From: Lentisphaerota bacterium
GTDB lineage: Bacteria > Verrucomicrobiota > Lentisphaeria > Victivallales > Victivallaceae
Assembly (NCBI GenBank): GCA_015061775.1
Contig: SUVY01000008.1
Span: forward strand, 1-61,910
Reading direction: 5' to 3'
DNA length: 61,910 nucleotides
Shown piece by piece: positions 13,296-37,098 of the stretch. The first letter of the stretch is position 1. Each line of letters begins with the position of its first letter. The notes beneath the pieces are model-generated. The model searched no databases, was not told where the DNA came from, and saw only the letters and a program-made list of their open reading frames with translations. Both the position numbers and the translations under genes were made by a program.

Positions 13296-14160
13296 AGAAC
13301 CTATTTACGGACACATTGATTTGCACACCCACAGTTTTTATTCGGACGGCAGCGGCTCTCCGCGTGAACTGCTCGAGGAGGCGAAACGCAAGGGGCTCTC
13401 CGCAGTCGCTCTGACTGACCACGATACGGTTGCCGGAATTCCTGATCTGCTCGATGCCGCAAAAGATTTTCCGGAGCTCGAGGCAATCCCGGGAGTTGAG
13501 CTCTCAAGCGTCTATGCCGCGCGCGAGCTGCATATCGTGGGGTTGTGGATAGACCACACCTCTGAAGAACTTATCTCCTACCTTGAAGAGCAGCGCGTAA
13601 AACGGTGCAGCCGCAACGAGACTATGCGCAAAAAACTTGCCTCGCTCGGATTTCCCTTCGACTGGGACGAACCGGAGTTTGCCCAAGTGGAGTTTTCCAA
13701 TATCGGCAGACCGCATATCGCCAATGTCATGTGCCGCAAATACGGTTTTGACACTCCGCAAACGGTGTTTGAAAAACTCATCGGCCACAACCGTCCGGCA
13801 TACGTGAGAAGAGACCTTCCCTGCCCGGCACAGGCGATAGCCGCCATCCGCAGCGCAGGGGGCGTCGCAGTCTGGGCGCACCCGACCTACCGCGAAAAGA
13901 ACGAGCGCAACTTCGTCAAAAAAATGGCGAAACGTCTCGCCGCAAGCGGTCTCGGAGGCATCGAAGCCTACTATACATTGTTCGGTCCGAATGAGACAAG
14001 AATGGTCACCGAGATCGCCGAACTCACCGGACTCGCAAAATCCGGAGGCAGCGATTGGCACGGCAAAAACTCTCCGGAAACCGAAGTCGGCACCGGAAAG
14101 GGTGGATTGCGTGTTCCGGATTCTCTCCTCGAAGAGCTGCGCCGCTTCAGAAATGTGTGA
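13282..14160 (+). CDS. PHP-domain metal-dependent phosphoesterase
   Basis: The 292-residue protein shows the full PHP metal set: H15 and H17 in HTHSFYSDG, D22, DHD at 46-48, E73, H84, H145 in GRPHIA, H200 in WAHP, and D258/H260 in SDWHG. This matches the TrpH/YciV group (RNase AM, 3',5'-nucleotide bisphosphate phosphatase) rather than a polymerase PHP domain. It probably hydrolyses pAp or short RNA 5' ends. Its start overlaps mfd, so the two are translationally coupled. Confidence 0.88.
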   Translation: MPQPEEPIYGHIDLHTHSFYSDGSGSPRELLEEAKRKGLSAVALTDHDTVAGIPDLLDAAKDFPELEAIPGVELSSVYAARELHIVGLWIDHTSEELISYLEEQRVKRCSRNETMRKKLASLGFPFDWDEPEFAQVEFSNIGRPHIANVMCRKYGFDTPQTVFEKLIGHNRPAYVRRDLPCPAQAIAAIRSAGGVAVWAHPTYREKNERNFVKKMAKRLAASGLGGIEAYYTLFGPNETRMVTEIAELTGLAKSGGSDWHGKNSPETEVGTGKGGLRVPDSLLEELRRFRNV

Positions 14161-14168
14161 CACACTCC

Positions 14169-14217
14169 TGTCGCACCAACCCAAAGTGCGACAATGTGCC
14201 CACTCAAAAGTGCGACA
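14169..14217 (+). promoter_or_regulatory. Candidate upstream activator sites for dnaK
   Basis: The 8-mer GTGCGACA occurs at 14186-14193 and 14210-14217, and in inverted form (TGTCGCAC) at 14169-14176. The two direct copies are 24 bp apart and both extend into a TGTG. They sit about 85-135 bp upstream of the predicted transcription start, the usual place for a sigma54 activator. Confidence 0.5.
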
Positions 14218-14278
14218 TTGTGACGCACTTGGCATAAAAAACGTATTATTTTCCCATTTTTTCTTCTTTTTGGCACGT

Positions 14279-14294
14279 TGGCACGGCACTTGCT
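14279..14294 (+). promoter_or_regulatory. Sigma54 (RpoN) promoter of dnaK
   Basis: TGGCACGGCACTTGCT matches the -24/-12 consensus TGGCACG-N4-TTGCW exactly, with GG at 14280-14281 and GC at 14292-14293. Transcription would start near 14305, about 63 bases before the dnaK ATG. No CIRCE element or sigma32-like promoter is seen in this gap. A second, partial TGGCACG lies at 14271. Confidence 0.75.
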
Positions 14295-14367
14295 CATTGA
14301 GACAGTGTCAACAAAGCAACTTTTAACGGAGCCGCATAAAAGCTCCAAACATCAAGGAGAAAAAATT

Positions 14368-16263
<1,896 letters not shown>

Positions 16264-16280
16264 TAAAGAGTACATAGTCT

Positions 16281-16303
16281 CCGCCGGATACTTTTTCCGG
16301 CGG
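16281..16303 (+). terminator. Hairpin between dnaK and groES
   Basis: CCGCCGGA (16281-16288) pairs with TCCGGCGG (16296-16303). A T-run follows only after about ten bases, so this is a weak terminator or an RNA-stability hairpin that may let groESL be read partly from dnaK. Confidence 0.5.
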
Positions 16304-16369
16304 GGGGAATTATTTTTTGATTACACAAAAACGATATAGTGCATCAACAACCATAAAGGAGACTACAAA

Positions 16370-30437: not shown

Positions 30438-31676
30438 TCAATGACCGTGTCCGGCATGCGGGTCCATTCCGGCGGTAAGCAGGATCGCTTTGAGCTCAAA
30501 TGCTCCGACGGAAACATACTCTTCCCCTTTGGTCAAGCCGGAAATGATCTCGATGTATTTTCCGTCCGCCCTTCCGGTCCTGACAACACGGGTGATATAG
30601 TTTCCCTTTGCCGGAACAAATACCACCGTCTCTCCTGACACGAGCTGCACCGCCTCGCGGGGAATGATGATGCACTCTGAACTGCTCTCAAGTTTGATGC
30701 TGCCCATGGCAAACTCTCCGCTGCGGAGCTGATTTGCTTTGCTGTCAAGTTCGACGCGGACAACTCCTTTGCGGCTCACTTCGTCGATCACCGAGGACAC
30801 GTAGGTAACGACTCCGGCAAACTTTTCGTTTTTGCTGCCGAGCGGAGTGATTTCGACAGAGGCTCCGGGCTTTATACTGCGGAGCTCCTGATAGTCGGCG
30901 CGCAGTTCGACCCAGAGGCGGTCAAGGTCGCTTACGAGAAAGAGTACCTGGGTGTTGTCGTCAGCGTATTTTTCTCCGAGCGAGATATCGCGGGTCACGA
31001 CAGTACCGGATATCGGAGAAACGATATCATATTCCGTGCAGATGACATCCTTGCCGTCTTTGCCGTGTTTATGACCGCTATGCTTCAGATCAAGCTCGAG
31101 CGAGCGCAGTATGATCTCTGCCTTGCGGCGGTTTATTCCGGCGTCGATATACTCTTTTTTGTAACGCAGATACTCCTTTTCGGACATGGCTTTGTTGGCG
31201 AAGAGTTTTTCTGCCATGCGGAACTCCGAAGCGGCGACACTCTCGATGGCTTTGCCGGAGTAATAGGCGGAATAGTGCTCTCCGAGTTTCTCGCTGTTGA
31301 GGCGGGCGAGAACGTCTCCCTTTTTCACCCGGTCTCCCTGTTTGGCATAGACCGCGGTGACGAATCCGGGAACTCTCTGCATGATGCGTGAAGTGCGGTC
31401 GGCGTTGAGTTTGACTTCTCCATGAAGTTCGAGCCGCCGATTCATCATGCCGCTCTGCACGCGGGAGTGAACGATCTTCACATGCTTCCTCTGCTCAGAA
31501 GTGAGGTGTATCCCCTCCCCGGCTCCGTGATCATGTCCCGCATGGGGATCGGCAGAGTGGTTGTGTTCAGCTTCCGCGTGATGGGATTGCTTGGAAAAGG
31601 TAAAGACTCCGCCCATATATCCAGCTATCATAAGAACCGCGTAAACGGCGGCAAAAATCGCTATATATCTCTTCAT
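30438..31676 (-). CDS. cusB: Metal-efflux membrane fusion protein, CusB/CzcB type
   Basis: The 412-residue adaptor joins the RND pump to an outer-membrane channel. An N-terminal helix (about 4-27) anchors it. A His-rich segment (HHAEAEHNHSADPHAGHDHG, about 32-51) follows, then barrel-sandwich halves around VYAKQGDRVKKGDVLARL, an alpha-hairpin, SPISGTVVTRDISLGEKY, and a C-terminal barrel ending in a second His motif DPHAGHGH. The histidines are likely metal-binding. It starts nine bases after the His-rich gene upstream. Confidence 0.92.
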   Translation of the reverse strand: MKRYIAIFAAVYAVLMIAGYMGGVFTFSKQSHHAEAEHNHSADPHAGHDHGAGEGIHLTSEQRKHVKIVHSRVQSGMMNRRLELHGEVKLNADRTSRIMQRVPGFVTAVYAKQGDRVKKGDVLARLNSEKLGEHYSAYYSGKAIESVAASEFRMAEKLFANKAMSEKEYLRYKKEYIDAGINRRKAEIILRSLELDLKHSGHKHGKDGKDVICTEYDIVSPISGTVVTRDISLGEKYADDNTQVLFLVSDLDRLWVELRADYQELRSIKPGASVEITPLGSKNEKFAGVVTYVSSVIDEVSRKGVVRVELDSKANQLRSGEFAMGSIKLESSSECIIIPREAVQLVSGETVVFVPAKGNYITRVVRTGRADGKYIEIISGLTKGEEYVSVGAFELKAILLTAGMDPHAGHGH

Positions 31677-35209: not shown

Positions 35210-36598
35210 TCAGTATTTTTTCCGCTTTCCGGCGGATGGTATATTCATAGCTTCGCGGTATTTCGCCACCGTTCTGCGGGCGACGGAAACGCCCTCAGCC
35301 GAGAGCAGTTCTGAGAGTTTTTCATCCGACAGCGGAGAGTGCGGATCCTCGCGGCGGATAAGTTCACGGAGCCGCTCTTTGACCGCATTGGCGGATATAT
35401 CGGAGCCGCCTCCGGCAGTTGAAGAGTAAGCTCCTGAAAAAAAGTATTTCAACTTGAATACTCCGTGCGGAGTCGCCACATACTTGCCGTCCACGGCGCG
35501 GCTGACCGTAGTCTCATGGACTCCGATAGCATCTGCCGCCTGTTTCATGGTAAATCCGTGGAGAAATTCCGGCCCGCGGTCAAGAAAGTCTTTCTGGTGC
35601 ACAGCAATGACCTCCCCGAGACGCAGAAGAGTGCTTTTGCGCTTTTCCAGCCCTTTGATGAGCTCCCGCGCCGCGGCAAGTTTCTCTTCGAGATAGGCGC
35701 GGTCTTCGGCACTCAGAGCCGGATCGCGGAGCAAATCTGCGTAACGTGAGGACACTCCGAGCCGCATGGGCTGCTCTCTGGTGAGACGGACGAGATACTC
35801 TCCGTCGATCTGGCGGACGATCTCAAGCTCGACTACGGCAGCCGATGAGCTGCCTCCTGAGCGAACTCCGGGAGTCGGATCGAGCTTTCTCAGCTCTGCG
35901 AGAGCCGCGAGCAATTCATCCATCGCAACTCCAAGCCGCCGGGCAAGCTGCGGAAGGCGGTTGTTTTCGATATCTTCAAGCCCTCCTGAGATGATCTCTT
36001 CAAGAAGTGGAGTCAGTTTCCCTTTGCGCTCAAGCTGCAGCCTGAGGCACTCTGCCAGATCCCGGGCTCCGATCCCCGGAGGGTCGAAACTCTGTATAAG
36101 CTTCAAAGCCTCCTCAAGCTCCTGCATATCGGCATTGCAGGTCATCGCAAGATCGGCAAGCGGAGTTTTAAGATAGCCGGTGTCATCGAGCAGAGCCGCG
36201 ATTTCCATAGCGAGCTCCGCAGTACGCGCGGAGCAGCCGCTTGTAATGATCTCGGTATCGAGCTGTTCGGCGAGCGTGGGTCCGGGAGCAGGACGATTGA
36301 GCAGATAGTCCGGCTGCTCCTCAGAGCGGCGCAGACGCTCAGGATCTGGAATATCAACTTCATCTCCCCATTCATCGAGCTCTACGGTGCTTTGGGACTC
36401 ATCCTGACCATCTTCGGTGTTTTGAGGTTCGCTCAGCGGTTCGAGCTCCTCGAGCATCGGATTTACTTTCAGCTCATTGGCGAGGAATTGTTCGAGTTCC
36501 AGCACGGGGCAATGCAGCAGCTCCAGAGACTGCCGCTGATGCTGTGACAGTTTCTGTACCTGTTTCTGTTCAAGATTGGCTGACTGCTCAAAATTCAT
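35210..36598 (-). CDS. rpoN: Sigma54 factor
   Basis: The 462-residue factor has the Gln-rich activator-interacting region I at the start (EQKQVQKLSQHQRQSLELL), an acidic region II, the core-binding domain, and the C-terminal DNA-binding domain with the RpoN box ARRTVAKYRE about 20 residues from the end. ATG 36598 has GGGGAG ten bases upstream; GTG 36610 overlaps the ybeY stop and leaves no room for a site. It reads -24/-12 promoters and needs an AAA+ activator, none of which is in this window. A matching promoter lies before dnaK. Confidence 0.96.
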   Translation of the reverse strand: MNFEQSANLEQKQVQKLSQHQRQSLELLHCPVLELEQFLANELKVNPMLEELEPLSEPQNTEDGQDESQSTVELDEWGDEVDIPDPERLRRSEEQPDYLLNRPAPGPTLAEQLDTEIITSGCSARTAELAMEIAALLDDTGYLKTPLADLAMTCNADMQELEEALKLIQSFDPPGIGARDLAECLRLQLERKGKLTPLLEEIISGGLEDIENNRLPQLARRLGVAMDELLAALAELRKLDPTPGVRSGGSSSAAVVELEIVRQIDGEYLVRLTREQPMRLGVSSRYADLLRDPALSAEDRAYLEEKLAAARELIKGLEKRKSTLLRLGEVIAVHQKDFLDRGPEFLHGFTMKQAADAIGVHETTVSRAVDGKYVATPHGVFKLKYFFSGAYSSTAGGGSDISANAVKERLRELIRREDPHSPLSDEKLSELLSAEGVSVARRTVAKYREAMNIPSAGKRKKY

Positions 36599-36606
36599 AT
36601 ATTGGA

Positions 36607-37098
36607 TCACTCCCCGGGAAATATCTCCTGCCAGACAAACCCCTCTTTTTCCAGAGCCGCCAGCACTTCGCGCTCGCGGCGGCGCATACGCTTGCGGGAT
36701 ACGGGATCAAGATCGTCCTCTCCTGCGCTGTGCAGCAGTCCGTGAACGACATACAGAGCAGTTTCCCTTGCGTAGCTTGAGTTTTTGCGTTTCGCACCTT
36801 CTCTCTCGGCGGCATCGGGATTGACGATAAGTTCGATCGCAGTCTCTCCTTCGAGCATCTCAGGAAACTCATCATCAAAATAACAAAACGTGATAACATC
36901 CGTCGTCCCCTCGTGTCCGAGGAGATCCCAGTTGCGTTTTGCCATTATATTGTCGTTGACAAACTCGACAGAGAGCACCCAGCCGAACTCCTCAGGAAGC
37001 CGTGCGTAATGGGCTGCGCGGACTGCAAAGTTCTGCAGTTTACTTCTATGGGGTTTGGGATGACTCTGATTTTTCCACTTGTACTGGATCTTCTGCAT
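36607..37098 (-). CDS. ybeY: Endoribonuclease YbeY (rRNA maturation factor)
   Basis: The 163-residue protein has the YbeY fold: VEFVNDNIMAKRNWDLLGHEGTTDVITF, a basic segment and the metal motif HGLLHSAGEDD. The usual motif is HGxLHxxGYDH; here the third His is Asp, which could still bind zinc. ATG 37098 has GGAAGA eight bases upstream and overlaps the previous gene by 53 bases; an ATG at 37131 would overlap more and has no site. It helps mature 16S rRNA. phoH, 7TM-HD and ybeY in this order is a common conserved cluster. Confidence 0.93.
   Translation of the reverse strand: MQKIQYKWKNQSHPKPHRSKLQNFAVRAAHYARLPEEFGWVLSVEFVNDNIMAKRNWDLLGHEGTTDVITFCYFDDEFPEMLEGETAIELIVNPDAAEREGAKRKNSSYARETALYVVHGLLHSAGEDDLDPVSRKRMRRREREVLAALEKEGFVWQEIFPGE

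Follow-up and report, generated by a model that had tools for sequence, protein, structure and literature searches.

Control of stress genes by NtrC-family activators or sigma54 has been described for HsfA and lonD in Myxococcus and for ibpB, rpoH and psp in Escherichia coli. These cases involve other target genes, and we know of no relation between them and the operator found here in the Victivallales. In Chlamydia trachomatis, CtcB/CtcC (AtoS/AtoC), an NtrC-type response regulator with its sensor kinase, drive sigma54, and the hrcA-grpE-dnaK operon has tandem promoters for sigma66 (under HrcA) and sigma54 (PMC7482065, PMC8762339). CtcC is devoid of a DNA-binding domain (PMC7482065), and the chlamydial sigma54 regulon consists mainly of late and secretion genes (PMC7482065, PMC8762339). 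For Planctomycetota and Bacteroidota, PMC12316311 describes -24/-12 elements that are, by computation, enriched at dnaK, dnaJ, grpE, groES, groEL and ibpA. Sigma54 at dnaK has precedents, then, in Planctomycetota, Bacteroidota and Chlamydia; for the Victivallales, no account of the operator, the activator, the kinase or a regulon of chaperones alone turned up in the literature searched.

The window analysed here is the whole stretch of 61,910 nucleotides of contig SUVY01000008.1 (assembly GCA_015061775.1), from a Lentisphaerota bacterium of the order Victivallales; its features are collected in the table. The initial annotation had proposed an exact sigma54 promoter for dnaK, and the element is indeed the sole exact match in the window, where 0.07 were expected. 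A stretch of 73 bp separates its end from the dnaK start codon; the predicted transcription start, at about 14305, is 12 bp past the C of the -12. RpoN is encoded at the position reported earlier and has all three of its Pfam domains. The exact sequence TGGCACN5TTGC occurs five times in the 2.7 Mb genome, the dnaK site included, and only two of the five clearly lie in front of a gene, namely those of dnaK and of an rtc-type operon beside RtcR. The other three were rejected: those on C23 and C60 are intragenic (one within an ftsH-like, one within an AraC-type coding sequence), and that on C91 has no clear downstream gene.

Features of the window around dnaK, and rpoN, with the basis of each assignment
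Feature	Position	Strand	Basis
Outer half-sites GTGTGACA-N6-TGTCGCAC, non-standard spacing	14155..14176		Sequence inspection
Second, degenerate dyad GTGCGACA-ATG-TGCCCACT (putative)	14186..14204		Matrix score -1.1
Full putative activator dyad GTGCGACA-TTG-TGACGCAC	14210..14228		Top matrix score of the window
8-bp tandem duplication TGGCACGT/TGGCACGG	14271..14286	+	Sequence inspection
dnaK -24/-12 sigma54 element TGGCACGGCACTTGCT	14279..14294	+	12/12 to TGGCAYR-N4-TTGCW
Ribosome-binding site CAAGGAG (dnaK)	14353..14359	+	Sequence inspection
dnaK, 631 aa	14368..16263	+	Pfam HSP70, E 9.7e-267
rpoN (sigma54; AID, core-binding and DNA-binding domains)	35210..36610	-	Pfam PF00309, PF04963, PF04552

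The promoter is conserved throughout the order. dnaK was located in 49 of 60 relatives, among them members of the genus as well as of other families, and the best -24/-12 element within 130 bp of its start codon scored 12 of 12 in 31 regions, 11 in 14 and 10 in three; shuffled sequences reached 11 or more in 0.3% of cases. Loss of the element from close relatives is thus not seen, 48 of the 49 regions scoring 10-12, and the single exception, G047, has a 12/12 site at -195. An alignment of the upstream regions anchored on the element shows no variation in TGGCA and TGC, and the flanks mostly carry 0-0.9 bits; the picture is somewhat flattering in that the alignment position was picked by score. 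One assembly, G046, with 6% contamination, has two full dnaK matches, each with a 12/12 sigma54 element and upstream dyads.

Upstream of the promoter, three copies of the octamer GTGCGACA, one of them inverted, had been pointed out as sites for a sigma54 activator. The copies are exactly where they were reported (14169-14176 on the minus strand, 14186-14193 and 14210-14217 on the plus strand), but the octamer is not what is conserved. The conserved unit is a 19-bp dyad with 3-bp spacing, GTGNGNCA-N3-TGNCNCAC (consensus over the relatives GTGTGNCA-N3-TGNCACAC), of which the octamers are half-sites, and the octamer was abandoned as the unit of the site. There is one further octamer copy elsewhere in the window and 2.07 are expected in all, so it is the clustering that is unusual, the octamer itself not being rare. 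A matrix built from genus sites near -50 only gives the full dyad a score of 19.4, with no other place in the window above 9.0. The centre of this dyad precedes the -24 T by 60 bp, at about -86 from the predicted start, and the degenerate dyad lies 24 bp further upstream; a second upstream dyad is also present in several relatives.

Inner TGNCA pairs at spacing 3 occur in 20 of the 49 dnaK upstream regions, against 0.3 expected; at each of the other spacings they occur in 0-6. The position of the dyad is kept across the genus, with centres at -50/-51, -60/-61 and -72, and centres in other families range from -97 to -144. The latter are about 11 bp apart (p 0.0015, or 0.045 on unique positions); a pooled test of helical phase that included secondary sites was not significant (p 0.09). 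The tandem duplication listed in the table may account for the roughly 8 bp by which the dyad in the window exceeds the usual distance of the genus, -50/-51. Applied outside the genus, the matrix found sites in 17 of 23 regions; by this matrix the dyad is absent from the other six, including that of G042, a genome with a single activator.

The initial annotation had suggested a genome-wide search for paired sites upstream of -24/-12 elements. Searched for the dyad alone, the genome has exactly two, at dnaK and clpB, and each precedes a -24/-12 element by about 60 bp; the clpB element CGGCACGGAATTTGCT (11/12) starts 71 bp after the start of the dyad core, which is near the dnaK spacing. A simple estimate puts the chance expectation for a genome this large at about 2.6 dyads, so it is the placement of the two that matters and not their number. 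In five other members of the genus, where loci were obtained for part of the dyads, those examined away from dnaK and clpB had no downstream element above 10/12.

When all 60 genomes were searched for a dyad followed 20-80 bp downstream by a -24/-12 element, with no gene class preselected, 29 matches were found in 27 genomes, and a reversed control pattern gave none. All 29 are in front of dnaK (assigned by coordinates), clpB (in G050, G038, G057, G052 and G002) or a zinc-ribbon/htpG operon. This strongly supports a dyad-plus-promoter regulon that is purely one of protein quality control. The zinc-ribbon gene of G045 (G045:C3:118426) is small, FmdB-like and directly before htpG, with a dyad and a sigma54 promoter upstream; we take it to resemble the Ruc redox chaperone of Mycobacterium. 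In the window, groES-groEL comes after dnaK, past a terminator-like hairpin at 16278-16306. No recognisable sigma54 site for groES-groEL was found in the interval 16264-16369, so that groESL seems not to belong to the dnaK/clpB regulon in this genome, in contrast to that of a Porphyromonas.

Two clear sigma54 activators are encoded in the genome: RtcR and, on contig C33, a response regulator of the NtrC type. RtcR was rejected as the dnaK activator: it adjoins a sigma54 promoter of its own, and many relatives have the NtrC-type activator only. At the RtcR-type locus (C55:5166-8889) an exact sigma54 promoter is in front of a divergent gene, and the linked operon probably serves RNA repair. The C33 activator (C33:31038-32537) has a receiver (PF00072), an AAA+ domain (PF00158) with GAFTGA, and a Fis-type HTH (HTH_8, PF02954). 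In this assembly a shift of one base after MSDRFKILIADDE, within the first receiver motif (C33 about 31030-31060), puts the initial part of the receiver out of frame; the G002 copy begins intact, and the break may be an assembly error.

Nearly all relatives have an ortholog of the C33 activator, with an identity of 50-73% that sets it apart from paralogs (44% or less), and the recognition helix in the HTH is well conserved in the family. Six genomes that are at least 90% complete (G016, G020, G029, G031, G035 and G042) have this as their single activator, others being sought at E below 1e-25, and keep the dnaK promoter. An ortholog of a soluble PAS histidine kinase was found in 57 of the 60 genomes, one each in nearly all, and is intact in this genome at C84:19791-20945. 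Within this genus, the present genome included, the activator and kinase genes are not linked; in G050 and most other families the kinase gene is just upstream of the activator gene.

The sequences thus give the promoter, the dyad with its conservation and spacing, the targets, the absence of HrcA, and an activator and kinase that are near-universal and linked elsewhere; from these we infer that the C33 activator binds the dyad and is phosphorylated by the C84 kinase. The targets, and they alone, suggest protein stress as the input signal. Very likely, in our judgment, this is a two-component sigma54 regulon for proteotoxic stress that drives dnaK and clpB. Sigma54-RNA polymerase would transcribe dnaK from the element in the window, and clpB elsewhere in the genome. 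A dimer of the NtrC-type response regulator would bind the dyad, 50-60 bp or more upstream, and its phosphorylation by the soluble PAS kinase would lead to opening of the closed complex. In the whole order this pair would probably replace the usual sigma32 or HrcA heat-shock control, acting as a proteotoxic-stress system in place of HrcA/CIRCE. An AAA+ activator that senses protein stress and fires dnaK had been suggested at the outset. The sigma54 part of this suggestion is strongly supported, with an enhancer-type site whose conservation reaches well past the close relatives; the AAA+ protein turns out to be a response regulator with a probable PAS kinase partner, which makes the kinase, and not the activator, the probable sensor.

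Chaperone genes could instead be under repression, the half-sites forming a CIRCE-like operator with N9 spacing and the likeness to -24/-12 being secondary. The inverted repeat TGTCGCAC-N9-GTGCGACA in the window does have this spacing. However, the exact repeat is private to this genome and present in none of the relatives, the conserved spacing is 3 and tied to -24/-12, and the CIRCE-like reading of the repeat is largely refuted. The initial annotation had seen no HrcA/CIRCE signal. HrcA is absent from this genome and from all 60 relatives (it was detected in 7 of 14 control genomes), and CIRCE, searched as TTAGCACTC-N9-GAGTGCTAA, has no match in the window at up to 3 mismatches. A repressor operator is accordingly most improbable. 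As for sigma32, loose matches in the window number 13 against 16 expected, and one weak match with 3 mismatches lies upstream of dnaK at 14233-14259.

A different division of labor would leave basal dnaK transcription to an upstream sigma70 promoter, the sigma54 promoter adding induction only. DnaK is usually required at all times, and there is a weak sigma70-like match, GTGACG-18-TATTAT, at 14220-14249. This match is nevertheless at chance level (9/12, with 0.7 expected), and the -24/-12 element is nearly invariant across the order. We regard such basal transcription as doubtful, and in any case it is compatible with sigma54 control under proteotoxic stress and does not exclude it. Somewhat less probable still, and in our view unlikely, is that promoter and dyad are real but that the system reports another signal, such as nitrogen, energy, redox or growth phase, with the chaperones as one output. 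Metabolic sensing is common among soluble PAS kinases of the NtrB type. Chlamydial sigma54 serves late development (PMC7482065). Against this, the dyad-plus-promoter matches over the 60 relatives are at protein quality-control genes throughout, with none at metabolic genes.

Beyond the order, TGGCAYN5TTGCW was sought throughout GTDB in the interval 31-91 bp upstream of dnaK starts, and at least 118 matches were obtained. Among the 80 matches listed, 77 have a group name and all of these are PVC or FCB: about 50 Bacteroidota, 12 Planctomycetota and 10 Verrucomicrobiota in the broad sense, with a few Fibrobacterota, Chlorobi/Ignavibacteria and Marinimicrobia. The inner N3 dyad is present in 34 of the 80 listed, against 0.5 expected, with 10.5-bp phasing (p 0.0015). 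In 30 genomes taken from the matches listed, dyad plus promoter occurs in 10, in seven of them at dnaK, for which the genomes were preselected. Beyond dnaK, the pattern is found in these 30 genomes at groESL (Porphyromonas), at clpB (Phycisphaerae) and at the gene for a 126-aa protein (Prevotella, G066:C64), which might be a new stress protein or a chance match.

Activators from several Verrucomicrobiota classes cluster with those of the Victivallales, apart from a Bacteroidota family (moderate support). The Bacteroidota protein is receiver-less, with the AAA+ domain first, a long linker and a Fis HTH in about 420 aa, and is conserved; in Alloprevotella rava it is the only activator detected. 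It is a candidate for the chaperone activator of Bacteroidota. The chances seem to us about even that a single ancient sigma54 heat-shock regulon, with the dyad TGNCA-N3-TGNCA upstream of dnaK (and also of groESL and clpB), runs through PVC and FCB, its sensory part having been swapped between phyla (a response regulator in Verrucomicrobiota, the receiver-less activator in Bacteroidota). The same dyad may also have been reached by convergence in the two groups.

In a lineage that lacks HrcA, heat-shock control can now be tied to specific candidates for activator, sensor kinase, operator and regulon, and how the PVC and FCB groups exert this control becomes directly testable. The results suggest that many gut and environmental bacteria of these groups run their core chaperone genes by an ATP-driven sigma54 switch, which would fill the place of a repressor or heat-shock sigma factor. 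For the promoters of Planctomycetota and Bacteroidota, the accessible text of PMC12316311 names no operator, activator or kinase and has no mention of Lentisphaeria. The system resembles CtcB/CtcC of Chlamydia, a PVC relative, in having a two-component-driven sigma54 and a sigma54 promoter before an operon containing dnaK. Unlike Chlamydia, the Victivallales have no HrcA, their activator has an HTH (HTH_8) with a conserved dyad, and the targets found are chaperones only. With HrcA/CIRCE and sigma32 heat-shock control the system shares its target genes; by contrast, control here would be positive and ATP-driven, in place of repression or a heat-shock sigma factor.
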